Shown here: positions 7,789 through 29,478 of the stretch, piece by piece | How positions within the stretch are numbered: the stretch's first letter is position 1 | Layout: each line of letters begins with the position of its first letter | Origin: Geminicoccaceae bacterium | GTDB lineage: Bacteria > Pseudomonadota > Alphaproteobacteria > Geminicoccales > Geminicoccaceae | Reading direction: 5' to 3' | Length of the DNA stretch: 64,000 nt | NCBI GenBank assembly: GCA_025999455.1 | Contig: AP024683.1 | Location: 2,916,451 to 2,980,450, forward strand | The notes under the pieces: model-generated | What the model saw: only the letters and a program-made list of their open reading frames with translations | Database searches by the model: none | Told to the model about the DNA's origin: nothing | Translations under genes and position numbers: made by a program

Positions 7789-7927
7789 CGACGTTCCTCC
7801 CCCGACGGGCGGCGATCATGCCACGCCCGCGGGCCGACGCCAGGGGGCGAGGGGCCGACTCCACGGGTCGCGTCACGGTGGAACGGTCCGGCCCGTCTCG
7901 GCACGGGGCCGGCGCGCTCGCTCAACC

Positions 7928-7955
7928 TTGCGTCGAACCGACCACAACCTAGACT
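7928..7955 (+). promoter_or_regulatory. candidate sigma70-type promoter of the DUF2235-PilZ gene
   Basis: TTGCGT and TAGACT separated by 16 bp, ending 25 bp before the GTG start at 7981. The match is fair (TTG of -35; TA..-T of -10). It sits in a locally less GC-rich stretch of a 190-bp divergent intergenic region. Motif-level evidence only. Confidence 0.35.
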
Positions 7956-7980
7956 GTGCTCGAACGATCGGGAGGCGCCG

Positions 7981-12801: not shown

Positions 12802-13691
12802 GGGGCACCTCCGAGCTGGGCGCGCACGAACCGCTCGGCGAGCCCGACCGTGGCGACGAGGAGCGCGGCCAAGAGCGAGGCCACGACGAGGGCGGCCCAG
12901 ATCTGCACGGTCTGGCCGTAATAGGAGCCGGTCAAGAGTCGGGCCCCGAGCCCGGCCACCGCCCCGGTCGGGAGCTCGCCCACGATGGCGCCCACGAGCG
13001 CGATCGAGATCGCGACCTTCAAGCTCGCGAAGAGGAAGGGAAGCGAGGCCGGGAAGCGGAGGTAGCGCAGGACCTGGCCCTCGCTCGCGTTCCAGGTTTT
13101 CAAGAGCTCGAGTTGGATCGGCTCGGGCGAGCGCAGGCCCTTCACCATGCCGATCGTGACCGGGAAGAAGCAGAGATAGGTGCTGATCAAGGCCTTGGGC
13201 AGAAGGCCGGTGAGGCCGACCGCCGCCAGCACGACGACGATGATGGGTGCGATCGCGAGGATCGGCACGGTCTGCGAGGCGACGATCCAGGGGAGGAGCG
13301 CGCGGTCGAGCACCGGCAGATGGACGATCGCGACGGCGAGCAGGATGCCGAGGGCGGTGCCGAGCAGGAAGCCGAGGAGGGTCGAGGAGAGCGTGACCCA
13401 GGCGTGGTAGAGGAGCGAGCGGCGCGAGGTCGCCGGGAGACCGAGGGTCGTCTTGCGGATCTCGTCGAGGATCTGGTGCGGGGCGGGCAGCACCGGCCGT
13501 TCCATGGCCCAGGCCTCGGCCACGAGTTCGGCCGTGCCGGCCACCCGCCCCTCGCGCGCCCAGCGGTCGCGGATCTGGGGCGCGTTCAAGACCACCGCGG
13601 CGGCGTACCAGAGGAGCAGGATCGCGGCCACGACGACCGCGACCGGCCCCGCCTTCCCTTCCCCGATCCGCCGCCGGACCGCGCCGAGCAC
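12798..13691 (-). CDS. SsuC-type ABC transporter permease
   Basis: Inner-membrane permease (297 aa), first gene of the binding-protein/permease operon. The start is the GTG at 13691, preceded by GAGGAGG; the huge open frame running further upstream is antisense to the helicase operon and is not real. It has six membrane segments and an EAA loop in RYLRFPASLPFLFASLKVA. Its first about 24 codons, ribosome-binding site and leader lie in a 145-bp segment that is duplicated at 25757-25902, on the far side of the defence operon. Confidence 0.9.
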   Translation of the reverse strand: MLGAVRRRIGEGKAGPVAVVVAAILLLWYAAAVVLNAPQIRDRWAREGRVAGTAELVAEAWAMERPVLPAPHQILDEIRKTTLGLPATSRRSLLYHAWVTLSSTLLGFLLGTALGILLAVAIVHLPVLDRALLPWIVASQTVPILAIAPIIVVVLAAVGLTGLLPKALISTYLCFFPVTIGMVKGLRSPEPIQLELLKTWNASEGQVLRYLRFPASLPFLFASLKVAISIALVGAIVGELPTGAVAGLGARLLTGSYYGQTVQIWAALVVASLLAALLVATVGLAERFVRAQLGGAP

Positions 13692-13763
13692 CCCGCCTCC
13701 TCGCGCCTCCGTCCCGAGGGTTAGGGGCGCGAGGCGGCGCCTGTCGAGGGGGTGGGGGGTCGT
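13619..13763. repeat. direct repeat copy 1 (5' end of permease gene), left bracket of defence operon
   Basis: This 145-bp stretch covers the start codon, ribosome-binding site, first codons and leader of the reverse-strand permease gene. It is about 93-95% identical, in the same orientation, to 25757-25902. The only length difference is one base near 13710. Sequence similarity ends abruptly just past 13763 and fades to the left of 13619. The helicase/methyltransferase operon lies exactly between the two copies. By context this copy is the original, since it continues into an intact gene. Confidence 0.93.
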
Positions 13764-13804: not shown

Positions 13805-13842
13805 CGAGCAGCGATCGTGCCGTCGAACGCGGGGAGGCCGAC

Positions 13843-16697
13843 ATGGACGAAGCGGGTGCGGCCGAGCGCTGGTCACCGGGGAAGCTCGCGGCGGCCCGCG
13901 GGAGGCCGTGGATCGTCGTGGCTTCCGATCCGGCGACCGGCCTCGTCGAGTTGCGACCGCTCGCCGATCCGGACGAGGCCGCGAGCGCCCTCCTCCTCGA
14001 CCTGCGGCGCGAGACCATCCGACCGGCGACCTTCCCGCTGCCCGATCCGGCGCGCGCAGGTGACGCTTCGGGCGCGCTCGCGCTCTTCGATGCGAGCCGC
14101 CTCCTCCTGCGCAGTGCGGCCGCCCCTTGCGGGGGCTCGGCAAAATCTCCTGCACCCCACGCCCCTACCAGTACGTGCCGCTCCTCTTGGCGCTGCGCCG
14201 CCCCGATCCGGTCCGGCTCCTGATCGCCGACGACGTCGGCGTGGGCAAGACGATCGAGGCGGCACTCCTCGCCCGCGAGCTCGTCGATCGGGGGCTCGCG
14301 CGCCGGCTCGGCGTCCTCTGCCCCGCCCATCTCGTCGAGCAGTGGACCCGCGAGCTCAAGGAGAAGTTCGCCTTCCGGCCCGATCGGATCCAGCCCGCGA
14401 CCATGGCCGCACTCGAACGCCGCCTGCCGCGGCCGGATGCGAGCGTGTGGGCCTTCAGCGACTGCTTCGTGGCCTCGATCGACTTCGTCAAAGGCGAACG
14501 CCAGCGCGAAGCCTTCCTGCGCGACGCCCCGGATCTGTTGATCGTCGACGAGGCGCACGGCTGCGCCCGACCGGCCGGCGCGCGCAGCCGCGGCCAACAA
14601 TTGCGCTTCGAGCTCCTCGCGCGGCTCGTCGAACGTCGACCGAACCTCCACCTCGTGCTCGTCACCGCCACGCCGCATTCGGGCATCGAGGAGAGCTTCC
14701 GCTCGCTGCTCGGCTTGTTGAACCCGGCGTTCGACGGCGAGGACCGGCTCGACCGGCGCCGGCTCAAGCCCTTCCTCGTCCAGCGTCGGCGCCGCGACGT
14801 GGCGCGCTGGCTCGGCCCGACGACCCCGTTCCCGGAGCGCGCGCCGCGCGAGGTCACTTACCGGCTCGATCCCGACCAGGCCCGGCTGTTCGAGGCGGTG
14901 CTCGACCATTGCCGGGCGCGGGTGAGCGGCCCGGGCGGTACCCGCGACGCCCGCCAGCGCGTGCGCCACTGGGCGGCGATCGCGCTCTTGCGTTGTGTCC
15001 TCTCGAGCCCGCGCGCCGCCGCGACCGTCCTCACCCGCCGCGCCGGAGGCGGAGCACTGCTCACGGGCGAGGAGGATCCCGAGGCGATCGACGAGCGGTT
15101 CCGGCCGGACGTGTCGGACGCGGTCGACGAGACCGCGACGAGCGATCTCGCTCCGTCGGCCCCGCTCGACGCCGAGGCCCCGACCCTGCCCGAGGCCGAT
15201 CGTCGCCGTCTGAACGAGCTCGCCCGCCGGGCCGCCGCCCTCGAGGGCCCCGAACGCGACCCCAAGCTCGCCGCCGCCATCCGCGAACTGCAGGGCCTTC
15301 TCGCGCGCGGATTCTCCCCGATCGTCTTCTGCCGGTTCGTGCCGACCGCGAGCTATCTCGCCGACCATCTCGCCCGCGCCCTGCCCGGCGTCGAGGTCGC
15401 GGCGGTCACCGGCGAGCTCGCCGAGGAGGTGCGCCGCGAGCGGATCGAGGCGCTCGCCCGGGCACCGCGCCGGCTCCTCGTCGCGACCGACTGCCTTTCC
15501 GAAGGCATCAACCCCCAGGACCATTTCGACGCGGTCCTCCATTACGATCTGCCCTGGAACCCGAACCGCCTCGAGCAGCGCGAGGGCCGGGTCGACCGCT
15601 TCGGCCAAGCGAAGCCCGTGGTCGAGACGGTCGTCCTCTACGGTGCGGACAACGAGGTCGACCTCGCGGTGCTCGAGGTCCTGATCCGCAAGGCGCGCGA
15701 GATCCGCGCGGTGTTGGGCGTCGCGGTGCCGGTCCCGGCCGGCGCCGAAGAGGTGCTGGATGCGGTCGTCGCCTCGGTGTTGCTGCGCCGCGACCGCCGC
15801 CGCCAGCTCCGCCTCGACTTCGAGGACGAGGACCGGACCCGCTCCCTCCTCGCCGCCTGGGACCGGGCGGTCGAGGCCGAGCGTGAGGACCGCACCTACT
15901 TCGCCCAGGAAGGGATCCGCCCCGAGGAGGTCGTGAACGACCTCGCCGAGCTCTACCGCGTGCTCGGCGATCCGGCCGCCGTCGAACGCTTCCTGCGCAC
16001 CGTGCTGCCGCGCCTCGGCGGCTTCCTCCGGCCGACCGCGCGGCCCGACCGGTTCCTCCTCCACCCGGGCGAGCAGGAGAAGGAGCTCGCCGCACTCCTC
16101 GGCGGCGAGGTCCCGGTCGAGGTCTGCTTCGACCGCCTCCTCGACCCCGAGGCCCTCCATCTCGGGCGCACGCATCCCTTCGTCGAACGGCTCGCCGCCC
16201 GGGTCACGGGCCTCGCCCTCGAGGGCCGCGACGGCGGGCTCTTCGCCCGCTGCGGTGCCGCGCGCACGCCGCTCGTACGCGAGATCACGGCCCTCCTCCT
16301 CCTCCGCCTGCGCTACACGCTCGAAGAGGGCCGCGCCGAACGCTTCGCCGAGGAGGTCCGGGTCGTGGCCGCGACCCTCGACGATGCCGAGCGCCTCGCC
16401 TTCCTCGAACCACTCGACGCGACGGGGCTCGAGCTCCTCGAGCGGGCCGAACCGGTCGCCCCCGAACCGACCCGCTTCGAGCGCACGAGCTGGCTCGAAC
16501 GGTTCCTCGCGGCGATCCGCGCCGAGCCGCGCTGGCACGAGCCCGTGACCCGGGCGCGGAGGGCGGCGCTCGAGGCGCAGCACCGGCGGATCCGGGCCCT
16601 CGGCGGGGAGACCGGCCGCTTCCGCGTCCGGCCCCACGCCCCGCCCGATCTCTTGGGCCTCTTCCTCCTCTTCCCGACCACCGGAGACCGGCCGTGA
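13843..16697 (+). pseudogene. SNF2-family helicase, DrmD-like, interrupted by a -1 frameshift
   Basis: First gene of a three-gene operon; it would encode about 951 residues if the frame were restored. The ATG at 13843 follows GGGGAGG. Residues 1-94 (GKLAAARGRPWIVV..ALFDASRLLLRSAAAP) are in one frame; from about 14124 the protein continues in the -1 frame as LRGLGKISCTPRPYQYVPL, the normal continuation. One base appears missing from the C run at 14123-14126. The rest is a full SNF2 motor: Walker A DDVGVGKTIEA (14231), VDEAHG (14545), ATPHSG (14670), and helicase C ending in LEQREGRVDRFGQ (15600). The end, RPHAPPDLLGLFLLFP, is as in DISARM DrmD proteins. Either a recent mutation or a sequencing error. 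Confidence 0.82.
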
Positions 16698-19600
16698 GCA
16701 CGGTGATCGCGATCGAAGGCGGCCTCTTCGACCCCGAGCTCTTGGAGCGGCTCTTGACCGCACCCGAGGCGATCGAAGGCCAGGCGGCCGAAGCCTTCGG
16801 CTTCGAGAAGCGGGTCCGGCTCGCCGACGAGATCCAGGAGAGCTTCGGCCGCGTGCTCTCGCACTGGCGGAGCTTCGAGCGGCGACGGGCGGCGGTCGGC
16901 GAGGGCGGTGCCGGGCGGATCGCGCGCGAAGGCTGGATCGTGCCCTTCCTGCGCGAGCTCGGCTTCGCGCCCCGCTTCCTGCGCCGGGGCCTCGCCGGCC
17001 CGGCCGAGACCTTCCCGATCACCCACGCCGAGGGCGAGGAGGAAGCACCCACCGTCCCGATCCACGTCGTCCCTTTCGAGCAGGACCTCGATCAGCGGGG
17101 CGAGCGGCGCCTTTCCCCGCACGGTCTTTTGCAGTCCTGCCTCGACCGCACCGATTTCCTCTGGGGCCTCGTCACCAACGGGCGGCGGCTGCGGCTCCTC
17201 CGGTCGAGCGCCCGAACCACCCGCCAAGCCTTCCTCGAGGTCGACCTCGAGGCGATCGCCCGCGACGAGCTCTACCCCGACTTCGCCCTGCTGTTCCGCC
17301 TCCTCCACCGCTCGCGCTTCCCCGTGAGCCCCGGGGCGGCCCACCACTGTCTGCTCGAGCGCTGGTACCAGAAGGCGATCGAGGAGGGCGGCCGGGTCCG
17401 CGAGAAGCTCCGCGAAGGGGTCGAAGAGGCGCTCCGCATCCTCGGCACGGGCTTCCTCGCCCATCCCGAGAGCGACGCGCTCCGCCGAGCCCTCGCCGAA
17501 GGCCGACTCGCCCCCGAAGCCTACCGCGACCAGCTCCTGGCGCTCGTCTACCGGCTCCTCTTCCTGCTCACCGCCGAGGAGCGCCGGCTCCTCGTGCGCA
17601 CCGACGCCGACCCCGACACGGCCCGTCGCTACGCGATCTACGAGCGCTGGTACGGCATTTCGCGGCTGCGCGAGCGGGCCGAACGCCGAAGGCCGGACCC
17701 GCACGCAGATCTCTGGCTCGGCCTCGGCGTCCTCTTCCGCGCCCTGGACGAGCCCGACGAGGCGAAGAAACTCGGCCTTTCCGCCCTCGACGACGACCTC
17801 TTCGCCCTCAAGGCCTGCGCCGACCTCGAAGCCGCCCGGATCGCCAACGACCGGCTCCTCGAGGCGCTCTTCCACCTCTCGACCTTCGAGAGCGAGGAGG
17901 GCCGCGGCCGGCGGGCGCGACGGGGCCCGCGGCGGCGGGTGCGCTTTTCCGCCCTCGACGTCGAGGAGCTGGGTTCGGTCTACGAATCACTCCTCGAGCT
18001 CCACCCGGTCGTCGAGCCCGACCCGCCGCGCTTCGACTTCGTGCGGGGTGGCGAGCGCAAGAGCACGGGCAGCTACTACACCCCCGACCCGCTCGTCCGG
18101 GCGCTCGTCGAGAGCGCGCTCGAGCCCGTGCTCGAGGCCCGGCTCGCATCCGCTTCGAGCCCGGCCGAGCAGGAAAAGGCGATCCTCTCGCTCAAGGTCG
18201 TCGACCCGGCCTCGGGCTCGGGCCATTTCCTCTTGGCCGCCGCCCGCCGGCTCGCCCAGGAGCTCGCCCGGATCCGCACGGGCGAGCCCGAGCCGGCCCC
18301 GGCCGCCCGCCGCCGAGCACTCCGCGACGTCGTCCGCTCCTGCCTCTACGCGGTCGACCTGAACCGCCGCGCGGTCGAGCTCGCGAAGGTCGCCCTCTGG
18401 CTCGAGAGCCTCGTCCCGGGCGTGCCGCTCTCCTTCCTCGATCCCCACGTCCGCCGCGGCGACAGCCTTTTGGGCGTGTTCTCGCTCGAGCAGCTCGCCG
18501 AAGGCATCCCCGACGCGGCCTATGCGGCGCTCGAGGGCGACGATCCGGCGGTGGTCCGGGCCCTGCGCAGGCGCAACGAGGCCGAACGCGGCGCGGGCGG
18601 GACCGGGCTCTTCTTCCACGGCGTGCCGGAGCTCCTGCGGAAGCTCGCGGCGGGGCTCGAGGCGATCGCCGCCATGCCCGAGGACCGGCTCGAAGAGGTC
18701 CAGGCCAAGCGGCGGGCCTTCCGCGCCTGGCAGGCGAGCCCGGAGCACGAGCGGCTGCGCCTTGCCTGCGATCTCTGGTGTGCGGCCTTCTTCCTGCCCA
18801 AGCGGAACGAGACGGAAGGGCTCGTGCCGACGAGCCGGCATCTGGCCGAAGCGCTTTCGGGCGAGCGCGCCCGGCTGCCCTCGCAGATGGTGGCCGAGGT
18901 CGAGACCCTTGCCCGCGACGAAGGCTTCTTCCACTGGCCGCTCGAATTCCCGGAAGTGTTCGCCGCGGGCGGCTTCGACGTCGTGCTCGGCAACCCGCCT
19001 TGGGAGCGGGTCAAGCTCCAGGAGCAGGAATTCTTCGCCGCCCGCGACCCCGAGATCGCGAACGCCCCGAACGCGGCCGAGCGGCAACGGCTGATCCGGG
19101 CGCTGCGCGAGCGCGACCCGGCGCTCGCCGCGGCTTTCGCGGAGGCCAAGCGACGGGCCGAGGCCGCGAGCCGATTCTTGCGGACCTCCGGCCGCTTCCC
19201 GCTCACCGGCAAGGGCGACGTCAACACCTACGCCGTCTTCGCCGAGCTTTTTTCGGAGCTTCCGAACGAACGCGGCCGGGCCGGGCTGATCGTGCCGACC
19301 GGGATCGCGACCGACAAGACGACGAGCGGATTCTTCGAAGCGATCTCGACGAAGGGACGGCTCGCGAGCCTGTTCGATTTCGAGAACCGGGAGGGCATCT
19401 TTCCGTCCGTCCACAGAAGCTACAAGTTCTGCCTGCTGACGCTCGGGCGGAACGTCGCCGAAGCCGAATACGCCTTCTTCACGACGAACGTGGTGCAGCT
19501 CGCCGACCGAAGGCGGCGCTTTCGCCTGGGCCCGGCGGACATCGCCCGGATCAACCCGAACACGCGCACCTGCCCGATCTTCTGCACGGGCTACGATGCC

Positions 19601-20650
19601 GAGCTCACCGAGAAGATCTACGCCCGGGTGCCGGTGCTGATCGACGAGGCGAAGGGTGCGGCCGGCAATCCCTGGCGCATCGAGTTCATGGCGATGTTCC
19701 ACATGTCGAACGACAGCGGCCTGTTCTGCACCCGCCGGCAGCTCGAGGGAGCGGGCGCATGGCGCGAGGGCGTGAACTGGGTCGAGCCTTCGGGGCGGCG
19801 CTGGGTCCCGCTCTACGAGGCCAAGCTGGTCCACCAGTTCGACCATCGCTGGGCCACCTACGAGGAAGACGGCGAGACCACGCGGGACGTGACCGCGGCC
19901 GAGAAGGCCGACCCGGGCTTCGAGCCCCTTCCGCGCTATTGGATGCCGGAGGAAGAGGTCGAGGCGCGGCTGCGGGCGAAGGGCTGGAGCCGCGGCTGGC
20001 TCCTCGGCTGGCGGGACATCTGCCGCTCGACCGACGAGCGGACCGTGATCGCGGGGGTCGTGCCGAGGAGAGGAACCGGGCACAAGCTGCCACTTTTCTT
20101 TGCGAAGGCTTGTCCTGCCCGAACCGCCGCGCTCCTCGGAAACCTCAACTCGATCGTCCTCGATTTCTGCGCGAGGCAAAAAATCGGCGGTACCAACCTC
20201 ACATATTTTTACCTCAAACAGCTTCCTGTTCTATCGCCTGCGGCTTACCATGAGGACCGTTTGACCTTCATCCTCCCGCGCGTCCTCGAGCTCACCTACA
20301 CGAGTTGGGCCATGCGAAGCTTCGCCCGCGACCTGGGCTACGAGGGGCCTCCCTTCGTTTGGGACGAGGAGCGCCGGGCGCGCCTGCGCGCCGAGCTCGA
20401 CGCCTACTACGCCTTCCTCTACGGGCTCACGCGCGACGAGCTCCGCTACGTCCTCGACCCGAAAGAGGTCATGGGCGGGGATTGGCCCTCCGAGGCCTTC
20501 AAGGTCGTCAAAAAGAACGAACTGAAAAAATACGGGGAGTACCGGACGGGACGGCTCGTGCTCGAGGCTTGGGACCGGTTCGAGGCCGACGGCACGTTCG
20601 CGCGGGCGCGGGCCGGTGCGGCGGCGGCCGACCCGGGAGAAAAGCCGTGA
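16694..20650 (+). CDS. Eco57I-type adenine-N6 DNA methyltransferase, DrmMI-like
   Basis: Large DNA methyltransferase (1318 aa), second gene of the operon; its GTG start overlaps the helicase stop (GTGA). The N-terminal 450 residues are a helical/alpha-beta region without a recognisable nuclease active site. Then come STGSYYTPDPLVRAL (about 456), the SAM-binding motif DPASGSGHF (about 504) and the catalytic NPPW (about 765) of gamma-class N6-adenine methylases. A target-recognition half ends with NSIVLDFCARQKIGGTNLTYF (about 1150-1170). Length and layout match DrmMI of class 1 DISARM. It probably marks self DNA. Bases 20090-20240 in the recognition region are clearly lower in GC than the rest. 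Confidence 0.88.
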   Translation: MSTVIAIEGGLFDPELLERLLTAPEAIEGQAAEAFGFEKRVRLADEIQESFGRVLSHWRSFERRRAAVGEGGAGRIAREGWIVPFLRELGFAPRFLRRGLAGPAETFPITHAEGEEEAPTVPIHVVPFEQDLDQRGERRLSPHGLLQSCLDRTDFLWGLVTNGRRLRLLRSSARTTRQAFLEVDLEAIARDELYPDFALLFRLLHRSRFPVSPGAAHHCLLERWYQKAIEEGGRVREKLREGVEEALRILGTGFLAHPESDALRRALAEGRLAPEAYRDQLLALVYRLLFLLTAEERRLLVRTDADPDTARRYAIYERWYGISRLRERAERRRPDPHADLWLGLGVLFRALDEPDEAKKLGLSALDDDLFALKACADLEAARIANDRLLEALFHLSTFESEEGRGRRARRGPRRRVRFSALDVEELGSVYESLLELHPVVEPDPPRFDFVRGGERKSTGSYYTPDPLVRALVESALEPVLEARLASASSPAEQEKAILSLKVVDPASGSGHFLLAAARRLAQELARIRTGEPEPAPAARRRALRDVVRSCLYAVDLNRRAVELAKVALWLESLVPGVPLSFLDPHVRRGDSLLGVFSLEQLAEGIPDAAYAALEGDDPAVVRALRRRNEAERGAGGTGLFFHGVPELLRKLAAGLEAIAAMPEDRLEEVQAKRRAFRAWQASPEHERLRLACDLWCAAFFLPKRNETEGLVPTSRHLAEALSGERARLPSQMVAEVETLARDEGFFHWPLEFPEVFAAGGFDVVLGNPPWERVKLQEQEFFAARDPEIANAPNAAERQRLIRALRERDPALAAAFAEAKRRAEAASRFLRTSGRFPLTGKGDVNTYAVFAELFSELPNERGRAGLIVPTGIATDKTTSGFFEAISTKGRLASLFDFENREGIFPSVHRSYKFCLLTLGRNVAEAEYAFFTTNVVQLADRRRRFRLGPADIARINPNTRTCPIFCTGYDAELTEKIYARVPVLIDEAKGAAGNPWRIEFMAMFHMSNDSGLFCTRRQLEGAGAWREGVNWVEPSGRRWVPLYEAKLVHQFDHRWATYEEDGETTRDVTAAEKADPGFEPLPRYWMPEEEVEARLRAKGWSRGWLLGWRDICRSTDERTVIAGVVPRRGTGHKLPLFFAKACPARTAALLGNLNSIVLDFCARQKIGGTNLTYFYLKQLPVLSPAAYHEDRLTFILPRVLELTYTSWAMRSFARDLGYEGPPFVWDEERRARLRAELDAYYAFLYGLTRDELRYVLDPKEVMGGDWPSEAFKVVKKNELKKYGEYRTGRLVLEAWDRFEADGTFARARAGAAAADPGEKP

Positions 20651-23600
20651 CCTTCGACATCTTCGAGCTCGACCGGCGCGTCGCCGAAGAGTACCGCGAT
20701 TACGTCACGAGCTTCGTTCGGGTGCGCGAGCCGCGCCTGCGCGCCTTCGTCGAGGACGAACTCGGGAAGGGCCGGCTCTGGCCCGAGCCGATCCTCGAGC
20801 TCAACCCCGCCTTCGAGCGCGGCAAGAGCCTGGGCGAGCTCGCCCGCGAAGGGGTGATCCGCCCCGAGACGGCGCGCTTCTTCGGCGAGCGGCTCGTCTT
20901 GATGCGGCATCAGGAGGAGGCGATCCGGCTCGCCCTTTCCGGCCGGTCGGTCGTGGTCTCGACCGGCACGGGCTCGGGCAAGAGCCTCACCTATCTCGTG
21001 CCGATCGTCGACGCCGCCTTCCGCGCCGGGATCGAACGGCCGGGGGTGGTCGGGCTCTGCATCTATCCCATGAACGCGCTCGTGGGCTCGCAGCTCGAGG
21101 CCCTGCGCGCGTTCAAGAAGAAGAACTGGCCCGACTGTCCGCTGCGCTTCGAACGCTACACGGGGCAGGACCGCGACACCGAGCTGCGCAACGCGCTCCT
21201 CGGCAACCCGCACCACGTCATCCTCACGAATTACGTGATGCTCGAGCTCGCGCTCCTGCGGCCGACGGATCGCACGCTCGTCGAGCGGATGGTGCGCAAC
21301 CTCGCCGTGCTCGCGGTCGACGAGCTCCACGTCCATCGCGGCCGGCAGGGTGCGGACGTGGCGATGCTGTTGCGCCGGCTGCGCGAGCGGATCGAGCACG
21401 AGCCGGTCTGCATCGGCACCTCCGCCACGATCGCGAGCGAGGGCGACGGCGAGGCCCGCAAGAGAACGATCGCCCGGGTCGGCAGCCGGCTCTTCGGGGT
21501 CGAGATCGGGCCCGAGCAGGTCGTGGGCGAGAGCCTCGTGCGCCGCTGCCGGGTCGACCCGCCGGGCGACGGCGGCGCCCTGCGGGCGGCGATCGAGGCG
21601 CCGCCGCCCGAACCCGAGGCCGAAGCGCTCGCCCGCCACCCGCTCGCCGCCTGGGTCGAGAGCCGGTTCGGCGTGACCCGCCGGGGCGAGCGGATCGAGC
21701 GGGCCCGGCCGCTCGCCTTCGACGAGGGGGTGCGCGAGCTCGCGCGCGAGAGCGGCCTTCCGGTCGAACGCTGTGCGGCGGCGCTGCGGGCGGTGCTGCA
21801 GGCGGGCGCGCGGACGGCGCTCGAGGGCACGGGGCCCTTCTTCGCCTTCCGGCTGCACCGCTTCTTCTCCTCGGGGGCGAGCTTCTACGCCACGCTCGAG
21901 CCCGCCGAGCGCCGCCACCTCCAGGCCGAGCCCGCGCACCGGCTGCCCGGCGAGCCCCTCCGGCTGCTCGCCCCCTTGGCCTTCTGCCGGAGCTGCGGGC
22001 AGGACTTCCATCTGGTCGTGCGCACGGCCGAGGGCTTCCTGCCGCGCTCGCCCGAGCTCAACGCCCCGGCCGAGGAGATGGCGGGCGAGCCGGGCTTCCT
22101 GGTCGCGGCCGAGGCGGACTTCTGGGACCCCGAGGAGGAGGGCTGGCCGGACGATTGGCTCGAATGGCAGAACGGGCGGGAGCGACCGCGGCGCGAGTAC
22201 AAGGCCTACCGCCCCGAGCGGCTGTACGTGACGCCGGACGGGCGGGCGAGCCGGGAGCCGCGCGAGGGGGCGCTTGCCGTGCTCTGGCAGAAGCGGCCGT
22301 TCATGATCTGCCCGTGCTGCCGGACGAGCTACAATCTCCGCGTCAAGCGCGATTTCGGCAAGCTCGTGACCCTGTCCCAGATCGGCCGGTCGACCGCGAG
22401 CACGGTGCTGGCGGCGGCGACCGTGCGCGGCCTGCGCGCGCTCGCGGACGGCGAGGGTGCCGCCAAGCTCTTGAGCTTCACCGACAACCGCCAGGACGCC
22501 GCGCTCCAGGCCGGGCACACGAACGATTTCGTGCGGACCGTGACGATCCGCTCGGGGCTCGTGCGGGCGCTCGAGGTGAGGGGAACGCTGCGCGTGGCCG
22601 AGCTCGGCCGGGCGATCTTCGAGGCCCTCGCCTTGCCGCCCACGGCCTGGATGAAGACCCCGGTCGAGAGCGGCCCCGGCTTCGAGCGGGCGCGGCGGGT
22701 GATGCAGCGCGTCCTCGCTCATCTGGCCCTCACCGATCTCGCCCGCAGCTGGCGGGTCACCCAGCCGAACCTCGAAGATTGCGGGCTTTTGGCCCTCGAC
22801 TGGGAGGGGCTCGCCGAGCTTTCGGCCGACGACGGCCATTGGCGGGGCGTGCCGGTGCTCGAGGAGGTGCGGCCCGAGCTCCGGGAAAAGGTGGTGCGAG
22901 CGCTGCTCGACCATCTGCGGCGGGCGCTCGCGATTCGCACCGAGGATCTCGACCCCGAGAAGCTGCGGGAGCTCGCGCGGGAGAGTCGCGACGAACTCGG
23001 ACCGGGTTGGGCGATCGAGGAGGACCAGCCGGTCGGGTGGCGGATCGCCTTCTTGCCCGGGAGCCGCCCGCGCCGACGCGCCGAAGGCTTCGCCCTCGGC
23101 GCCCGCTCGACCTTCGGCCGCTATCTGCGGCTCCAGCGCGAACTCTGGTCGGACTTTCCCCCGCAGGCCGAGCTCGTCGAGCGGGTCGTCCTCGCCACGG
23201 TCGAAAAGCTCCGCGGCCATTTCCTCGTGCCGGCCGGTGAAGACGGGATCCAACTCCAGGCCGGAGCGCTGCTCTGGCGCAAGGGCGACGGACGGGTCCC
23301 GCCGGCCGATGCGGTCCGCACGGCCGGCCGGATCGCCGCGACCGCCGCGCGGGAGCGCGAGCCCAACGCCTATTTCACGCGCATCTACCGCGAGGGGCCG
23401 GAGCGGGTCTCCGGCCTCTCGGCGGCGGAGCATACGGGGCAGGTGTCGAGCGAGAACCGGCTCGCGCGCGAAAGGGCGTTCCGCGAGGGTGGGCTCGCGC
23501 TCTTGTGCTGCTCGCCGACGATGGAGCTCGGCATCGACATTCGCGATCTTTCCGCCGTGCATCTGCGCAACCTGCCGCCCGATCCGGCGCGCTACGCGCA

Positions 23601-25704
23601 GCGCGCCGGGCGGGCGGGGCGCGGTGGTCAGCCGGCGCTCGTCCTCGCCTTCGCCTCTTGGGGCAGTGCCCACGACCGGCACTTCTTCGCCCGGCGCGAG
23701 CGCATGGTGGCGGGGGCGGTGACCCCGCCGCTCTACGCCCTCGACAACGAGGAGCTGCTCGAGAGCCATCTCCATGCGGTCTGGCTCGCCGAGACCGGCG
23801 TCGGGCTCGGCGGCAGCGTGCGCGAGGTGCTCGACCTCGACGATCCGGCCTTGCCGCTCCAGCCCTCGATCCGCGAAGCCGTGGCGCTCCCCGAACGGCG
23901 GCAGGGCGCGCTCGTCGCGCGGATGCTGCGGCTCCTCGGCGAGGCGCTCGGGCGACCCACGAGCGAAGAGGACCGGCGCCGGATCGAACGGCTCGTGGCC
24001 GGTGCCCCGGCGCGCTTCGACCGCGCCTTCGACCGCTGGCGCGAGCTCTACCGGGCGGCGGTCCGGGCGCGCGAGGAGGCCCGGCGGGTGATCGACCGGC
24101 CGACCACGCCGCGCGTCGAGCGGCAGGATGCGGAACGGCGCGAGCGCGAAGCCAGGCGCGACCTCGAACTCCTACGCAACGAAACGGAGGAGGCCTCGCT
24201 CTCCGACTATTACCCCTACCGGTACCTGGCCGCCGAGGGCTTCATCCCCGGCTACAATTTCCCGCGCCTGCCGGTCCGCCTGCTGGTCCCGGTGGGTGAT
24301 CGGAGCGAGCAGATCGACCGGCCGCGTTTTTTGGGCCTCGCCGAGTTCGGGCCCGGCAATCTCCTCTACCACGAGGGGCAGCAATACCGGGTGAGCGGCC
24401 TCGTCCTGCCCTCGGCGGGCCTCGAGCAGGCGCTCAAGCGCGGCAAGCGCTGCCCGACCTGCGCCCGTCTCCATCTGGGCGAGGAGTTCGACCGCGAGCT
24501 CTGCGCGGGCTGCGGCCGCCGGCTCGACGGCGGCGCCGAGCTCTGGCTCGATCTCCTCGAGCAGAACGTCGCGCGCGCCCGACCCGTCCTGCGGATCACC
24601 TGCGAGGAGGATGAGCGGGCGCGCGAGGGCTACGACCTCGCGACCGCCTGGCGGTCGACCGTGCCGCTGCCCGAGGCCCGGCGCTTCGTCGATGCCGCGG
24701 GCGCGCCGCTCTGCGAGCTGCACCCGGTGCCGCGGGCCGAGCTCTGGCGCGTGAACCTCGGCTGGCGCCGGGGTCGCGACCGCGACCTGCTCGGCTTCCG
24801 GATCGATCCGAGCTTCGGCCGCTGGGCTCAGCGGGAGAGCCCGAACGGCGAGGAAACGGACCCCGGCCGCCGGGTCCTTCCGGCCGTCTTCGACGTCCGC
24901 AACCTCATCCGGCTCCGCCCGCTCGGCCTCGAGGGGGCGGACGACGCGGCCCTCTTGACCCTCGCCTACGCGCTGCGCCGCGGGGTGCAGCGCCGCTTCG
25001 AGCTCGAGGAGCACGAGGTCGCGGTCGAGCTCGTGGGCGAGGGTGCGGAGGCCTCGATTCTCCTCTGGGAGGCGGCGGAGGGCGGGCTCGGTCTCGTCGA
25101 GCGTCTGGCCGAGCCCGCGATCTTGCGCGAGCTCGCGCGGGCGACGCTCGAGCTCCTCCACGTCGACCCCGAGACCGGCGCGGAGCGGGCCGAAGCGGCG
25201 AGCCGCTGCGAGGCCGCCTGCTACGATTGCCTCTTGAGCTACGGCAACCAACGCGATCATCCCCGGCTCGATCGCCGGCTCGTCCTGCCCTGGCTGCGGC
25301 GGTTGGCCGAGCTGCGCGAGCCGGACGAGCGCGAGGCGCGGAAGGCCCGATTCGACGAGCTCTCGCGCCAGCTCGACCCGGCCTCGTCCTTCGAGCGCGC
25401 GGTGCTCGAGGCGATCTTCGAGGCGGGGCTCCCCCTCCCCGACCGGGCGCAGTTCTGCCCCGCAGCGGACCTTCCCGTCCAGGTCGATTTCTTCTGGAAG
25501 CGCGACCCGGCGCCCGGGCTCTGCCTCTTCGTCGACGGCCCCGCCCACCGCGATCCCGACCTCGCCGCCCGCGACCGGGCGCTCAGACGCGAGCTCGAAC
25601 GGCGCGGCTTCGTCCTCTTCGTGGTCGCGAGCGAGGCGAGCCTCGCGGAGCGGATCGGCGAGCTCGGGAAGCTCCTGGCCGAACTCGGCATCCAGGGCCC
25701 CTGA
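20647..25704 (+). CDS. giant DEAD/DEAH helicase with DUF1998 and C-terminal Vsr-like domain (DrmA+DrmB-like)
   Basis: Third gene of the operon (1685 aa); the GTG at 20647 overlaps the methyltransferase stop. Order of parts: Walker A TGTGSGKS (106-113), DELH box (225-228), TSAT (258-261), a long insertion with a CRSC and a CPCC cluster (about 446 and 554), helicase C (EHTGQVSSENR near 927 through QRAGRAGRGG), a CPTC..CAGC zinc element (about 1268), and DUF1998 with CEAACYDCLLSYGNQ (about 1520). The last about 105 residues resemble Vsr/DUF559 nucleases (VDFFW, VDGPAH). DISARM splits these functions between DrmA and DrmB; Druantia DruE also combines helicase and DUF1998. Likely the translocating core of the antiphage module. 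Confidence 0.87.
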   Translation: MTFDIFELDRRVAEEYRDYVTSFVRVREPRLRAFVEDELGKGRLWPEPILELNPAFERGKSLGELAREGVIRPETARFFGERLVLMRHQEEAIRLALSGRSVVVSTGTGSGKSLTYLVPIVDAAFRAGIERPGVVGLCIYPMNALVGSQLEALRAFKKKNWPDCPLRFERYTGQDRDTELRNALLGNPHHVILTNYVMLELALLRPTDRTLVERMVRNLAVLAVDELHVHRGRQGADVAMLLRRLRERIEHEPVCIGTSATIASEGDGEARKRTIARVGSRLFGVEIGPEQVVGESLVRRCRVDPPGDGGALRAAIEAPPPEPEAEALARHPLAAWVESRFGVTRRGERIERARPLAFDEGVRELARESGLPVERCAAALRAVLQAGARTALEGTGPFFAFRLHRFFSSGASFYATLEPAERRHLQAEPAHRLPGEPLRLLAPLAFCRSCGQDFHLVVRTAEGFLPRSPELNAPAEEMAGEPGFLVAAEADFWDPEEEGWPDDWLEWQNGRERPRREYKAYRPERLYVTPDGRASREPREGALAVLWQKRPFMICPCCRTSYNLRVKRDFGKLVTLSQIGRSTASTVLAAATVRGLRALADGEGAAKLLSFTDNRQDAALQAGHTNDFVRTVTIRSGLVRALEVRGTLRVAELGRAIFEALALPPTAWMKTPVESGPGFERARRVMQRVLAHLALTDLARSWRVTQPNLEDCGLLALDWEGLAELSADDGHWRGVPVLEEVRPELREKVVRALLDHLRRALAIRTEDLDPEKLRELARESRDELGPGWAIEEDQPVGWRIAFLPGSRPRRRAEGFALGARSTFGRYLRLQRELWSDFPPQAELVERVVLATVEKLRGHFLVPAGEDGIQLQAGALLWRKGDGRVPPADAVRTAGRIAATAAREREPNAYFTRIYREGPERVSGLSAAEHTGQVSSENRLARERAFREGGLALLCCSPTMELGIDIRDLSAVHLRNLPPDPARYAQRAGRAGRGGQPALVLAFASWGSAHDRHFFARRERMVAGAVTPPLYALDNEELLESHLHAVWLAETGVGLGGSVREVLDLDDPALPLQPSIREAVALPERRQGALVARMLRLLGEALGRPTSEEDRRRIERLVAGAPARFDRAFDRWRELYRAAVRAREEARRVIDRPTTPRVERQDAERREREARRDLELLRNETEEASLSDYYPYRYLAAEGFIPGYNFPRLPVRLLVPVGDRSEQIDRPRFLGLAEFGPGNLLYHEGQQYRVSGLVLPSAGLEQALKRGKRCPTCARLHLGEEFDRELCAGCGRRLDGGAELWLDLLEQNVARARPVLRITCEEDERAREGYDLATAWRSTVPLPEARRFVDAAGAPLCELHPVPRAELWRVNLGWRRGRDRDLLGFRIDPSFGRWAQRESPNGEETDPGRRVLPAVFDVRNLIRLRPLGLEGADDAALLTLAYALRRGVQRRFELEEHEVAVELVGEGAEASILLWEAAEGGLGLVERLAEPAILRELARATLELLHVDPETGAERAEAASRCEAACYDCLLSYGNQRDHPRLDRRLVLPWLRRLAELREPDEREARKARFDELSRQLDPASSFERAVLEAIFEAGLPLPDRAQFCPAADLPVQVDFFWKRDPAPGLCLFVDGPAHRDPDLAARDRALRRELERRGFVLFVVASEASLAERIGELGKLLAELGIQGP

Positions 25705-25756
25705 CCCCGCGCGGCGGCCGGTTGCGGAGCCTCGGCGGCGGCCCGGCGGAGGAGGA

Positions 25757-25902
25757 GGATCGCGGCCACGACGACCGCGACCGGCCCCGCCTTCCCTTCC
25801 CCGATCCGCCGCCGGACCGCGCCGAGCACCCCGCCTCCTCGCGCCCACGGCCCCGAGGGTCAGGGGCGCGAGGCGGCGCCTGTCGAGGGGGTGGTCGGTC
25901 GT
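25757..25902. repeat. direct repeat copy 2 (truncated permease 5' end), right bracket of defence operon
   Basis: Copy of 13619-13763 lying 52 bp after the stop of the giant helicase gene. It keeps the permease GTG start, ribosome-binding site and about 24 codons on the reverse strand, but the coding frame then runs into unrelated sequence, so this copy is a dead gene start. The differences from copy 1 are a handful of substitutions and one base of length. The 368-bp gap between the helicase stop and the next gene start at 26073 holds this repeat, a possible promoter at 25911 and nothing else recognisable. Confidence 0.93.
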
Positions 25903-26825: not shown

Positions 26826-27111
26826 CGGTTGCCGAACCGCCCCGCGCTCCGGAGCCCGAACGGGAGCCACCGGGGAGAAGCCCGGTCCGGGACGGGATCC
26901 ATGGGCGTGCGCTGCAATTTCACTTGCCTCGTCGGCGAGGTCAGCGGCTGTCGAAGCGTGATCATTATACCCGAGACCCGGGGAGTCGAGTGAGGAAGCA
27001 CAGATTGGGGCGCGTGAGCGCCGAGCGCCGTCTCGTCCGGGCCGTGCCCTACGAGGATTCCGACAAGGAGGTGAAAGCGGCGGACCGGCTCATGTGAGGA
27101 GCTCGCCCGGA
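26826..27111 (+). pseudogene. decayed partial copy of cysK and its leader
   Basis: Bases 26826-26935 align with 28400-28513, the leader and first 13 codons of the intact cysK, at nearly 90% identity. About 230 bp of the original are then missing, and 26959-27111 resumes with the equivalent of 28747-28893, less well preserved. Translated in the cysK frame it reads MGVRCNFTCLVGEVSGCRSV, then VIIIPETRGVE and a TGA stop, so it is broken. The rest of the 541-bp gap between 26682 and 27223 holds no other gene I can support; 26682-26825 shows nothing. The toxin-antitoxin pair follows immediately. Confidence 0.85.
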
Positions 27112-27223: not shown

Positions 27224-27631
27224 GTGGCAGGACCTGCCGCCGTCGCGGAACGGGCCGAGGAGCTCACCCTCGACGGCTCGGTCGACGAGGCGGCTCTGGT
27301 CGGCAAGGCCGTCGTGCGCGCGGCCGATCGCCTGGGCCTCACCAACCACGAGCTCGCGGCCGTCGTGGGGCTGTCGGAAGCCAGCGTCTCGCGGCTGCGC
27401 CGCGGCCGTTTCCGCCTGGAGCCCGGCGGAAAGCCGTTCGAGCTCGCCCTCCTTTTGATCCGTCTGTTCCGCGCCGTGGATTCGCTCACGGGTGGCGACG
27501 AGAAGATCGCACGGGCGTGGCTCCGCAACCCGAACACCGCCCTCGCTGCGGTGCCGATCGAACGGATCGCGACCGTGGCCGGGCTCCTCGATGTCGTCGC
27601 CTATCTGGACAGCCGCCGCGCCGTCTTCTGA
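27224..27631 (+). CDS. Xre/MbcA/ParS-type antitoxin (DUF2384)
   Basis: Antitoxin of a RES/Xre type II system (135 aa). The N-terminal part carries an Xre-like helix-turn-helix (LGLTNHELAAVVGLSEASVSRLRRG, about residues 38-62). The C-terminal part is the toxin-binding domain, ending in AWLRNPNTALAAVPIERIATVAGLLDVVAYLDSRR, where the NP..L....P......G...V..YL pattern is diagnostic. The GTG at 27224 follows GGAG. Its 3' end overlaps the RES toxin start by about 40 bases in another frame. It should repress its own operon and block the toxin. Confidence 0.9.
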   Translation: MAGPAAVAERAEELTLDGSVDEAALVGKAVVRAADRLGLTNHELAAVVGLSEASVSRLRRGRFRLEPGGKPFELALLLIRLFRAVDSLTGGDEKIARAWLRNPNTALAAVPIERIATVAGLLDVVAYLDSRRAVF

Positions 27632-28391
27632 GGCGCACCCCTACCGGGGCACCGTCCGGCGCCTCGTCGACGCGCAACACCAGGTCGCGACCCTGCCGCT
27701 CGTCGACACGATCGAGGAACAGGCGGCGCTCGAGCGGTTGCTGGACGCGACCGAGCCCTCCCTCCCGGCGCCCTGCCGCCACCTCCACGTCCTGCTGGCG
27801 ACGCCGTTCCGTCGGCGTCCCGCCCGGCACGAGTCGCGCTTCCGTCGGAAAGGCGATCCGCGCGGCGTGCTGTACGGCGCGGAAGAGGAGACGACGGCCC
27901 TCGCCGAAATCGCGTTCTGGCGGCTTCTGTTCTTCGCCGAGTCGCCGGCGACCCCTTGGCCGGACCGCCCGGTCCAGCTCACGGCTTTCAGCGCGGACCT
28001 CGCGAGCGAGCGCTCGCTCGACCTCGGCCGACCGCCCCTCGACCGGGACCGCTCCCTTTGGACACACCCCACGGACTACGAGCCGTGCCTAGAGCTCGCC
28101 GAGGCCGCACGAGAGGCGGCGATCGAGCTCCTTCGCTACCCCTCGGCGCGCGATCCGCGAGCAGGGACCAACGTGGCGGTCTTCGACTGCTCGGCTTTCG
28201 CCTCCGCCGAGCCCCTCGCCTACCGCACCTGGTACCTCGTTTTCGATTCGGGTGGCGTTCGCGCCCAGCGCGAGTTTCCTCTAGCCAGACTCGCCTTCGA
28301 CCGCAAAGCGTTCGCCCGCGACCCGCGGATCGCGGCGCTTCCGTGGGATCGGTCGGGCGCGGCGACGGGCCGTGAGCCGCGGCGCCGGTGA
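27591..28391 (+). CDS. RES-domain toxin (NAD+-degrading family)
   Basis: RES-domain protein (266 aa from the ATG at 27591, which overlaps the antitoxin 3' end; no later in-frame start precedes the conserved YRGTVRRLVDAQH). RES toxins such as MbcT and ParT attack NAD+ or modify host proteins with it. The family residues are present: Arg in HPYRG, the RFRRKGDPRGVLYGAEEETTALAE segment with its Tyr and Glu, and the Ser in LLRYPSARD. WTHPTDYEPC is also typical. Partnered with the Xre antitoxin upstream, it is a complete module lying between the cysK fragment and intact cysK. Confidence 0.88.
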   Translation: MSSPIWTAAAPSSEAHPYRGTVRRLVDAQHQVATLPLVDTIEEQAALERLLDATEPSLPAPCRHLHVLLATPFRRRPARHESRFRRKGDPRGVLYGAEEETTALAEIAFWRLLFFAESPATPWPDRPVQLTAFSADLASERSLDLGRPPLDRDRSLWTHPTDYEPCLELAEAAREAAIELLRYPSARDPRAGTNVAVFDCSAFASAEPLAYRTWYLVFDSGGVRAQREFPLARLAFDRKAFARDPRIAALPWDRSGAATGREPRRR

Positions 28392-28476
28392 CGGTCCGCC
28401 GGTTGCCGAACCGCCCCCGGCGCTCTAGAGCCCGGACGGGAGCCACCGCGAAGAAGCCCGATCCGGGACGGGATCC

Positions 28477-29478
28477 ATGGACGTCCGTCGCGATTTCACC
28501 CGCCTCGTCGGCAACACCCCGCTCGTGCGCCTGAAAAAGGCCTCGGAGCTCACGGGCTGCGAGATCCTCGGCAAGTGCGAGTTTCTCAATCCGGGCGGGA
28601 GCGTGAAGGACCGCGCCGCGCTCGCGATCGTCGAGGACGCCGAGAAGAAGGGCTTGCTGCGGCCGGGTGGGGTCATCGTCGAGGGCACGGCCGGGAACAC
28701 GGGCATCGGCCTCGCGCTCGTCGGCAACGTGCGCGGCTATCGCACCGTGATCGTCATGCCCGAGACCCAGAGCCAAGAGAAGAAGGACATGCTGCGGCTC
28801 GTCGGCGCCGAGCTCCGCCTCGTCCCCGCCGTGCCTTACAAGGACCCCAACAATTACGTGAAGGTGGCAGGCCGGCTCGCCGAAGAGCTCGCCAAGACCG
28901 AGCCCAACGGGGCGATCTGGGCCAACCAGTTCGACAACGTCGCAAACCGCGAGGGCCATTACCGGACGACCGGCCCCGAGATCTGGGAGCAGACGGGCGG
29001 GCGGATCGACGCCTTCACCTGCGCGGTCGGCACGGGCGGCACGCTCGCCGGAGTGGGCATGTTCCTCAAGGAACGCAAGCCTTCGATCCGGATCGTCTGC
29101 GCCGATCCGATGGGGGCGGCCCTCTATCACTGGTACAAGCACGGCGAGCTCAAAGCCGAAGGGAGCTCGATCACCGAAGGCATCGGCCAGAGCCGGATCA
29201 CGAAGAACCTCGAAGGGGCGCCGGTCGACGACGCGGTGCAGATCCCGGACGAGGAGGCACTCCCGATCATCTTCGACCTCGTGCGCGAGGAGGGGCTCGT
29301 GCTCGGCGGCTCCTCGGGCATCAACGTCGCGGGTGCCATCCGGGTCGCCAAGGAGCTCGGGCCCGGGCACACGGTCGTGACGATCCTTTGCGATTACGGC
29401 ACCCGGTACCAGAGCCGGCTCTTCAACCCCACCTTCCTGCGCGAGAAGGGCCTGCCGGTGCCGAGCTGGCTCGCCTGA
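28477..29478 (+). CDS. cysK: cysteine synthase A (O-acetylserine sulfhydrylase)
   Basis: PLP enzyme (333 aa) that makes cysteine from O-acetylserine and sulfide. The PLP lysine is K44 in NPGGSVKDRAA, the acetate/substrate loop is TAGNTGIGLA, and the phosphate-binding loop is GTGGTLAGVG. LGGSSGINVAGA near residue 272 completes the site. The C-terminus (PTFLREKGLPVPSWLA) is somewhat longer than in enteric CysK and common in alphaproteobacteria. It is followed at 38 bp by the sulfurtransferase gene, a sulfur-metabolism pair. The leader between 28400 and 28476 is also preserved in the decayed copy at 26826. Confidence 0.94.
   Translation: MDVRRDFTRLVGNTPLVRLKKASELTGCEILGKCEFLNPGGSVKDRAALAIVEDAEKKGLLRPGGVIVEGTAGNTGIGLALVGNVRGYRTVIVMPETQSQEKKDMLRLVGAELRLVPAVPYKDPNNYVKVAGRLAEELAKTEPNGAIWANQFDNVANREGHYRTTGPEIWEQTGGRIDAFTCAVGTGGTLAGVGMFLKERKPSIRIVCADPMGAALYHWYKHGELKAEGSSITEGIGQSRITKNLEGAPVDDAVQIPDEEALPIIFDLVREEGLVLGGSSGINVAGAIRVAKELGPGHTVVTILCDYGTRYQSRLFNPTFLREKGLPVPSWLA

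Follow-up and report, generated by a model that had tools for sequence, protein, structure and literature searches.

A putative ARMADA Type I anti-phage operon with the gene order armA-armB-armC in a Geminicoccaceae bacterium

Introduction

ARMADA (armA-armB-armC) was named in a bioRxiv preprint of September 2025, where it occupies its own place in a YprA helicase tree of nearly 52,000 proteins and is defined by a BrxHII-like helicase, a PglX-like methylase, and a YprA helicase with a C-terminal Vsr domain (PMC12458937). Type I systems are devoid of ArmD, and the A-B-C order has been reported for them in many archaea and cyanobacteria; the Type II system of E. coli blocked phage without growth arrest, all four of its genes being needed (PMC12458937). 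Among YprA helicases, fusion of the helicase with DUF1998 is the usual condition, DISARM being the split state (PMC12458937). DruE, a relative of ArmC, is reported to be a helicase-nuclease that loads on 3' single strands (PMC13192584).

In this study we analysed a stretch of 64,000 nucleotides from a Geminicoccaceae bacterium (AP024683.1, positions 2,916,451 to 2,980,450 of the forward strand), hereafter the window, to which all coordinates refer unless another record is named. An initial annotation had described a compact DISARM-like or Druantia-like module of three genes at 13843-25704. Our data indicate that this locus is probably an ARMADA Type I putative anti-phage operon, in the order armA-armB-armC.

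Results

The three-gene module itself is genuine; its proteins are an SNF2 helicase, an adenine methylase of the Eco57I type, and a DEAD/DUF1998 helicase of 1685 aa whose C-terminus is Vsr-like. Pfam confirmed the domains initially assigned to the three proteins (SNF2-rel_dom and Helicase_C on the main piece of ArmA; Eco57I on ArmB; DEAD, Helicase_C, and MZB, i.e., DUF1998, on ArmC), and active-site motifs were found in all three enzymes. A chance origin of the module is excluded by E-values down to 1.8e-148 together with the existence of homologous loci. At each of the two junctions, neighbouring genes share exactly four bases (16694-16697 and 20647-20650), so that the initial picture of three genes joined by such overlaps holds for the methylase, the DUF1998 helicase, and both junctions, but not for the SNF2 gene, which lies in two frames.

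Indeed, no single open frame runs through armA from 13843, as the piece starting at ATG 13843 and that starting at 14127 are in different frames. The N-terminal piece of this BrxHII/RapA-like SNF2 helicase (13843..14130, plus strand) matched positions 4-88 of the PADLOC profile PDLC02853 (E 4.6e-8, obtained with translation P0001, begun at 13819), and the main piece of 856 aa (14127..16697, plus strand), which carries the Walker A GKT, DEAH, and a helicase C-terminal domain, matched positions 89-973 with 494 bits and the DrmD profile PDLC02621 with 265 bits. Since the two pieces match consecutive parts of PDLC02853, we consider armA to be one gene with a frame change near 14,125. Sequencing errors are common in GC-rich runs, and the frame change, which is either genuine or an artefact of sequencing, falls within such a run. 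Given its split armA, the ARMADA copy of the window may not function, unless the shift is such an artefact or is somehow bypassed.

In this context, a decayed ARMADA locus, the operon being a remnant with a frameshifted armA, would be an addition to the ARMADA reading and not a different family. The splitting of armA is consistent with decay, as are two features of a contig from the same genus (L007), namely an in-frame TAG in armC ahead of the Vsr domain and an armA whose first ~110 residues are unrelated; however, armB and armC are fully open across 3,003 codons with their motifs intact, and the armA change is located in a GC-rich run, where errors of sequencing are common, so that we regard decay as possible but on balance unlikely. 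The odd N-terminus of the L007 armA gave no match in the genome of the window, and an ORF on the minus strand of L007 had no Pfam match at 0.001.

The second gene, armB (16694..20650, plus strand, GTG start), encodes a PglX/Eco57I-like adenine methyltransferase of 1318 aa, which matched the DrmMI profile PDLC02643 with 275 bits and Pfam Eco57I with 66 bits, and carries the motifs DPASGSG (residue 504) and NPPW (residue 767).

The third gene, armC (20647..25704, plus strand, GTG start), encodes a YprA-family helicase of 1685 aa that holds on one chain a DEAD domain corresponding to RecA1 (20905..21438; PF00270, residues 87-264), a helicase C-terminal domain corresponding to part of RecA2 (23413..23628; PF00271, residues 923-994), an MZB/DUF1998 zinc-binding domain (24961..25233; PF09369, residues 1439-1529), and a C-terminal Vsr-like PD-(D/E)xK nuclease domain (25381..25701) with conserved E1583, D1614, D1630, and H1634, all on the plus strand. 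The Vsr-like character of the C-terminus, already proposed in the initial annotation, is supported at the level of the aligned family, whose profile matches a DUF559-type endonuclease (3hrl, E 0.0022); the domain of the window alone matched only MTES_1575 (E 0.008, 16.7 bits), below the cut-off of that model. In Foldseek, the model of the C-terminal part of ArmC had MrfA (6znp) as best match (E 1.9e-9), and no nuclease was matched significantly. Among 28 other Type I ArmC proteins, 8 have an incomplete set of the Vsr-like residues, a count that leaves out L007, where the ArmC ORF ends ahead of this domain. Judged from sequence, the C-terminus of ArmC is Vsr-like and probably a nuclease.

At residues 285-412, where a BrxA-like helical insert after RecA1 (a mark of the ARMADA lineage) was sought, there was no PDB match and no Pfam match above cut-off. 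The model of the N-terminal part was poor (pLDDT 57.7) and Foldseek returned nothing for it at E <= 0.001, the top rows being DEAD-box helicases with MrfA at rank 7. Furthermore, zinc modules of the OB region were counted as CxxC motifs in the sequence, ARMADA Type I having one module and Type II two. Exactly two CxxC motifs, i.e., one module, were present in 28 of 30 Type I rows and none in the remaining two, while both E. coli proteins (Type II ArmC and DruE) have a third.

ArmC is carried by 29 homologous loci, of which 21 run C-A(-B) and eight have B before C, likewise the order of the window. This count excludes a second Thermus plasmid (L010, same as L042), L066 (overlapping L026), two loci with ArmC fragments (L027 and L028), and L055-L057 (fragments or a second copy, unscored); loci on viral contigs (L067-L073) were counted apart. 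For plasmids, 20 of the 72 records with a match were examined, and a search of a phage collection gave one record (partial, 31%). In L017, a Type I relative, a UvrD-like gene that weakly matches ArmD (78 bits) lies immediately ahead of armC. The survey of homologous operons that had been suggested initially found the three-protein core recurring in relatives, with ArmC as one chain in the loci read; separate drmB and drmC genes, whose routine presence had been named as evidence against the initial reading, were not a regular part of the operons read. drmA/drmB were listed in one of 18 annotated plasmid stretches (L014), as a separate cluster.

When compared against 29 near full-length ArmC ORFs, ArmC of the window scored 799-1,203 bits to 28 of them and 2,568 to the other, which is from the same genus, versus about 145 bits to the E. 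coli Type II ArmC and 126 bits to E. coli DruE. In the ArmC tree, these two E. coli proteins formed the outgroup (a single Type II sequence and a single DruE), and their separation from all 30 Type I rows was fully supported (FastTree 1.0; IQ-TREE 100/100). No match to a 557-aa part of E. coli ArmD was found within window positions 8001-34000. The score gap to the E. coli Type II protein, the single OB zinc module, and the lack of ArmD together lead to assignment as Type I, with reversed order. The usual Type I order armC-armA-armB, which is general and not strict, is not that of the window, whose A-B-C order is allowed for a subset of Type I. A clade of A-B-C systems plus Chlorohelix had a support of 0.208 in the unrooted FastTree tree and was not recovered by IQ-TREE; descent of the A-B-C systems as a single lineage is not supported by the ArmC trees.

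The operon is located in a defence hotspot bordered by the genes for an ABC permease and a probable cysteine synthase, a site at which related bacteria have other defence genes. The operon is flanked by a direct repeat, of which the left copy (13611..13763; repeat families D1 and D3), comprising the 5' end and upstream region of the ABC-transporter permease gene, is identical at 146/154 positions to the right copy (25749..25902). The same hotspot holds, outside ARMADA, an Xre-type antitoxin and RES-domain toxin pair (27224..28391, plus strand; PF20432, PF09722, PF08808), and its right border is a pyridoxal-phosphate enzyme, probably a cysteine synthase (28477..29478, plus strand; PF00291, 269 bits), a gene present in 6/6 genus genomes searched, including that of the window. 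No empty site was found: the permease contigs of G002 and G005 stop near the border, and the contig of G001 stops about 1.9 kb above the cysteine synthase, nothing being recognised in that stretch. The junction ORF of G002 had no Pfam match at 0.001 and was assigned to HmaC by PADLOC.

Discussion

The system found here has already been named, and the module is a further member of ARMADA, neither DISARM nor Druantia. Of ARMADA, the window shows all three protein families with their motifs, the fusion of helicase and DUF1998 in one chain, and the Vsr-like C-terminus. Moreover, the A-B-C order is common to class 1 DISARM, to Type II of ARMADA, and to several deep branches of Type I (the genus of the window, G017/Thermus, and cyanobacteria). 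A doubtful proposal, offered tentatively, is that an ancestral A-B-C arrangement could have given rise to C-A-B Type I and that, in the genus of the window, the operon might move independently of any integrase, through recombination in the duplicated 5' ends of the two genes bordering the hotspot (those for the permease and the cysteine synthase), the cell retaining a class 1 DISARM as well.

The initial annotation had proposed a class 1 DISARM in which DrmA and DrmB were fused and DrmC was lost. The A-B-C order does equal drmD-drmMI-drmA, as in a true class 1 DISARM located in the same genome about 2 Mb off, and ArmA and ArmB score 265 and 275 bits on the DrmD and DrmMI profiles, respectively; however, the genuine DISARM reaches 939, 1111, 857.6, and 245 bits for DrmD, DrmMI, DrmA, and DrmB, whereas in the window the best listed DrmA score is 40.5 bits and DrmB is not among the best 25 of 32 PADLOC families. 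The genuine DISARM also scores 502 on NF038324 and contains the only other MZB match and the only DrmB_fam match of the genome (G000:C1:923138-924880). In addition, ArmC is nearer to DruE (273 bits) than to DrmA. A fused DISARM is very improbable. The supposed merging of DrmA and DrmB is in fact reversed, since the fused form is usual among YprA helicases and DISARM is the split one (PMC12458937). A PLD nuclease is missing from the module, as had been stated (no PLD match). The suggestion that the Vsr-like domain replaces DrmC was rejected: a Vsr-like C-terminus belongs to the stated rule for ARMADA and need not replace anything.

A Druantia-type system, consisting of DruE with an accessory methylase and helicase, is hardly tenable. 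In PADLOC, ArmC does score best on DruE profiles (DruE3 273 bits, DruE1 247 bits), but no match to E. coli DruH was found within window positions 8001-34000, ArmC has no PLD match in Pfam, its partners are ArmA and ArmB, and its scores of at least 799 bits to 29 ArmC ORFs compare with 126 to E. coli DruE. The kinship with DISARM and Druantia perceived in the initial annotation is real, although the module fails as DISARM on DrmA and DrmB and as Druantia III on DruH and PLD. Least credible is a Dpd-like system (7-deazaguanine modification), suggested by the label DpdE of PDLC02853, the best profile of the SNF2 protein (494 bits), for this profile is also best in 4/4 further Type I ArmA proteins examined (487-769 bits), ArmA of the window reaches 189 bits with the NCBIfam DpdE model, whose cut-off is 500, and no Dpd partner occurs among seven neighbouring ORFs scanned. 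The DpdE label seems to cover Type I ArmA, and annotation relying on PDLC02853 may mislabel Type I ARMADA loci.

As an ARMADA system, the operon would act by self-methylation, helicase scanning, and Vsr cutting. ArmB would methylate host DNA at adenine, thereby marking self; ArmA, a RapA-like translocase, and ArmC would load on invading DNA that is unmethylated or has an unusual structure, e.g., intermediates containing single strands, and the OB-CON-DUF1998 canopy of ArmC may clamp the strand. The YprA helicase would then unwind the DNA of the invader and the Vsr-like domain would nick or cut it, the host surviving.

The locus of the window independently supports the view that ARMADA is a defence core in its own right, and it shows the reversed order of Type I, A-B-C, in an alphaproteobacterial family. 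Furthermore, one chromosome carries both ARMADA and a genuine class 1 DISARM, a natural pairing in which to study why a cell would retain the two.

In brief, from comparison with known systems, the window shares with Druantia III a DruE-like helicase, and differs from it in carrying ArmA and ArmB and in having neither a DruH match nor a PLD domain. With class 1 DISARM it shares an SNF2 helicase, an adenine methylase, and a YprA helicase in equal order, but DISARM separates the helicase (DrmA) from DUF1998 (DrmB), and DrmC is often present in addition. The armA-armB-armC order is also that of ARMADA Type II (E. coli ATCC 8739, NC_010468.1:4239557-4255798), which differs by an ArmD (RelE-like plus GajB-like helicase) after ArmC, an extra CxxC in the OB region, and an ArmC about 145 bits from that of the window. 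From ARMADA Type I as described, the operon departs by its A-B-C order in an alphaproteobacterium (of a genus shared with a Geminicoccaceae MAG) and by a frameshifted armA, and it agrees in the BrxHII/RapA-like helicase and PglX-like methylase, in the YprA helicase, which includes a fused OB-CON-DUF1998 and ends in a Vsr-like nuclease, in the absence of ArmD, and in the one zinc module of the OB region.

Operon structure and system assignment

The interval 13843-25704 holds three plus-strand genes, with four-base overlaps at both the A/B and B/C junctions: armA, armB (16694-20650, +, 1318 aa) and armC (20647-25704, +, 1685 aa). armA is split over two frames, one piece starting at ATG 13843 and the second spanning 14127-16697; since these cover adjoining parts of the same PADLOC profile (positions 4-88 and 89-973 of 985), they represent a single gene whose reading frame shifts near 14,125; the shift may be either a mutation or a sequencing error. 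An armA ORF of at least 924 codons was present in 23 of 29 relatives, among them a same-genus MAG contig (L007) whose ArmA N-terminus is unusual; for the remaining six, the stretch ended within the gene or did not include it. The first ~110 ArmA residues of this contig (L007:1871-2240) are unlike those of the window and resemble another SNF2 helicase, which may reflect a swap or a chimeric contig. Its armC also carries an in-frame TAG (L007:13235), between DUF1998 and the Vsr-like domain.

According to the preprint that named it, ARMADA combines a BrxHII/RapA-like helicase, a PglX-like methylase and a YprA helicase with a C-terminal Vsr nuclease, with ArmD added in Type II (PMC12458937). In the window, Pfam domains were SNF2/Helicase_C in gene A, Eco57I in gene B, and DEAD, Helicase_C and MZB (DUF1998) in gene C, with intact motifs in each (GKT and DEAH; DPASGSG and NPPW; TGSGKS and DELH, respectively). 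The initial annotation had read a DISARM-like/Druantia-like module with merged DrmA and DrmB functions. The best PADLOC match of gene C was DruE3 (273 bits), the top listed DrmA profile reached 40.5 bits, and DrmB was absent from the best 25 of the 32 families matched, the 25th scoring 16 bits. Gene B matched DrmMI best (275 bits), and gene A a profile labelled DpdE (494 bits; DrmD, 265), while its NCBIfam scores were 298 bits for DISARM_DrmD against a cut-off of 610 and 189 for DpdE against 500. The DpdE-labelled profile, PDLC02853, was likewise the top match of all four other Type I ArmA proteins tested, unlike the E. coli Type II ArmA, for which DrmD was best. The operon is real, well defined and of an already described kind, most probably an ARMADA Type I system in the order A-B-C.

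Relatives, gene order and phylogeny

Relatives were drawn from plasmids (72 records matched; 20 stretches from 19 organisms examined, two of them unannotated), from whole genomes (4/60, 3/190 and 10/200 matches, each including the window's own genome), from genome contigs (one locus) and from the Type II locus of E. coli ATCC 8739. In Type I, the order C-A-B is reported as usual, with A-B-C in many archaea and cyanobacteria (PMC12458937). Among 29 loci with a near full-length ArmC, 21 had C-A-B, or C-A where the stretch ended before B, and eight had B ahead of C (L007, L026, L042, L015, L043, L044, L045 and L017, the last with armA outside the stretch). Five cyanobacterial loci carry extra genes between B and C, and in Thermus armB occupies two ORFs. 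On the Pseudanabaena plasmid pPg_03, a UvrD-like gene (L017:6155-8578) immediately precedes armC of a Type I system; its weak similarity to an E. coli ArmD fragment (78 bits) was the sole ArmD match among these relatives. Of seven viral-contig loci, three had C-A-B, three showed only ArmC, and one (L067) had armA fragments followed by armB and armC.

The window ArmC scored 799-1,203 bits against 28 of the 29 relatives' ArmC ORFs and 2,568 against L007, compared with ~145 against Type II ArmC and 126 against DruE. In ArmC trees, built on 32 rows and 1680 columns, the two E. coli proteins separated from all 30 Type I rows (FastTree 1.0; IQ-TREE 100/100), the window paired with L007 (1.0; 100/100), and 18 C-A-B rows formed a clade excluding the window (1.0; 99.9/70). 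The next neighbour of the window ArmC differed between trees, being G017 plus Thermus in FastTree (0.833) and Caballeronia plus G361 in IQ-TREE (89.6/74). A single clade of all A-B-C systems with Chlorohelix had a FastTree support of 0.208 and was missing from the IQ-TREE tree. The window-L007 pair was left unplaced in the ArmA tree and joined the C-A-B group in the ArmB tree (0.912). The reversed order is thus scattered over deep branches, and a single descent is not supported. In the OB region, 28/30 Type I rows have exactly two CxxC motifs, and the rows of Caballeronia and G361 lack them; each of the two E. coli proteins has a third, in agreement with the one (Type I) versus two (Type II) insertions described in the preprint (PMC12458937).

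Vsr-like C-terminus of ArmC

Across 11 aligned C-terminal domains, E, D, DG and H are invariant. Their profile matched best, in the PDB, the DUF559-related, endonuclease-like protein 3hrl (E 0.0022); Vsr structures were weak (E 0.7-1). Scanned at E <= 10, these domains matched DUF559 in 8/11 (best E 3.6e-6), MTES_1575 in 7/11 (6.9e-7) and Vsr in 3/11 (0.023), and the window's domain on its own matched only MTES_1575 (E 0.008; 16.7 bits against a cut-off of 38.2). A predicted model of residues 1046-1685 (pLDDT 80, pTM 0.58) shows a C-terminal helix/strand pattern that is compatible with a PD-(D/E)xK domain. Its single Foldseek match at E <= 0.001 was the DUF1998 helicase MrfA (6znp, E 1.9e-9), and the PD-(D/E)xK nuclease TnsA came no closer than E 0.6-1.2.

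The preprint describes the Vsr-like domain as predicted active (PMC12458937). In one MAFFT alignment, in which L007 was not countable, the window and 20 of the 28 other Type I rows retained all six positions E-D-D-G-H-D, which were incomplete in Chlorohelix, Hydrogenimonas, Streptomyces, Mesorhizobium, Acidithiobacillus, Paracoccus, Croceicoccus and Methylorubrum (as a set, loci L011, L016, L018, L019, L020, L021, L023 and L046). The E. coli Type II ArmC has F in the H column. The eight incomplete Type I domains argue against a universal need for cleavage by this domain.

A defence hotspot in the genus

The operon's left neighbour is an ABC-transporter permease gene (12798-13715, -), and the right border a pyridoxal-phosphate enzyme gene (28477-29478), probably a cysteine synthase. 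A second copy of the permease 5' end (13611-13763) lies across the operon at 25749-25902, with 146/154 positions identical, and the 5' end of the cysteine synthase gene (28416-28512) recurs at 26840-26936 (86%). An Xre/MbcA/ParS antitoxin and RES-domain toxin pair (27224-28391) lies between operon and cysteine synthase.

Among same-genus genomes, G004 (L007) has the cysteine synthase gene directly after armC. An HmaC/DUF499-like ORF begins just beyond the permease border in G002 (L040; 99 bits over 137 aa, the ORF being cut by the contig end). Above the cysteine synthase gene, G003 (L084) carries fragments of an HsdR-like protein (357 bits) and of a SNF2 helicase, and G005 (L085) a sequence sharing 74% identity with the Xre-RES pair; the 1.9 kb at this border in G001 contained nothing recognisable. 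Defence-type genes thus occupy the site in five of six genomes, counting the window and Xre-RES, which points to a defence hotspot. No empty site was found among these genomes, and insertion at this place is presumed. No integrase was found among the ORFs scanned around the operon. Further left, the ORF at 7366-9426 has a Tle1-like phospholipase catalytic domain (PF09994), and sequence like 7339-7846 recurs above cysteine synthase in G003.

Comparison with known systems

Within openly licensed PMC literature, where absence is weak evidence, Geminicoccaceae was unnamed in the three phage-defence papers mentioning ARMADA among those listed (PMC12458937, PMC13192584, PMC12904381), and no paper joined Geminicoccaceae and DISARM; supplementary tables of PMC12458937 may already include this lineage. 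As far as these searches go, ARMADA in A-B-C order in this lineage, the genuine DISARM in the same genome and the shared defence hotspot are new.

By analogy, ArmB would mark host adenines by methylation, ArmA and ArmC would scan DNA that is unmarked or contains single strands and unwind it, and the Vsr-like domain might cut it. ARMADA is counted in a review among systems of unknown restriction mechanism (PMC12904381). The E. coli Type II system reportedly protects without growth arrest and requires all four genes (PMC12458937), DruE is described as a helicase-nuclease preferring 3' single strands (PMC13192584), and DISARM DrmAB as an ATPase responsive to DNA structure and methylation (PMC9142583).

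On the Nocardioides plasmid pNOCA01, annotated drmA and drmB (L014:1-4581) lie a few kb from its Type I operon. As a positive control, the window's own chromosome encodes a genuine class 1 DISARM (G000:C1:912731-924928; L075:4732-16929), with DrmD at 939, DrmMI at 1111, DrmA at 858 and DrmB at 245 bits (502 on NF038324, cut-off 240); DrmC was not found directly after DrmB, the next called ORF being on the opposite strand. On the same profiles the window proteins reached 265 (DrmD), 275 (DrmMI) and at most 40 bits (DrmA), with no DrmB among the families listed, a gap that marks ARMADA and DISARM as distinct systems within one cell.
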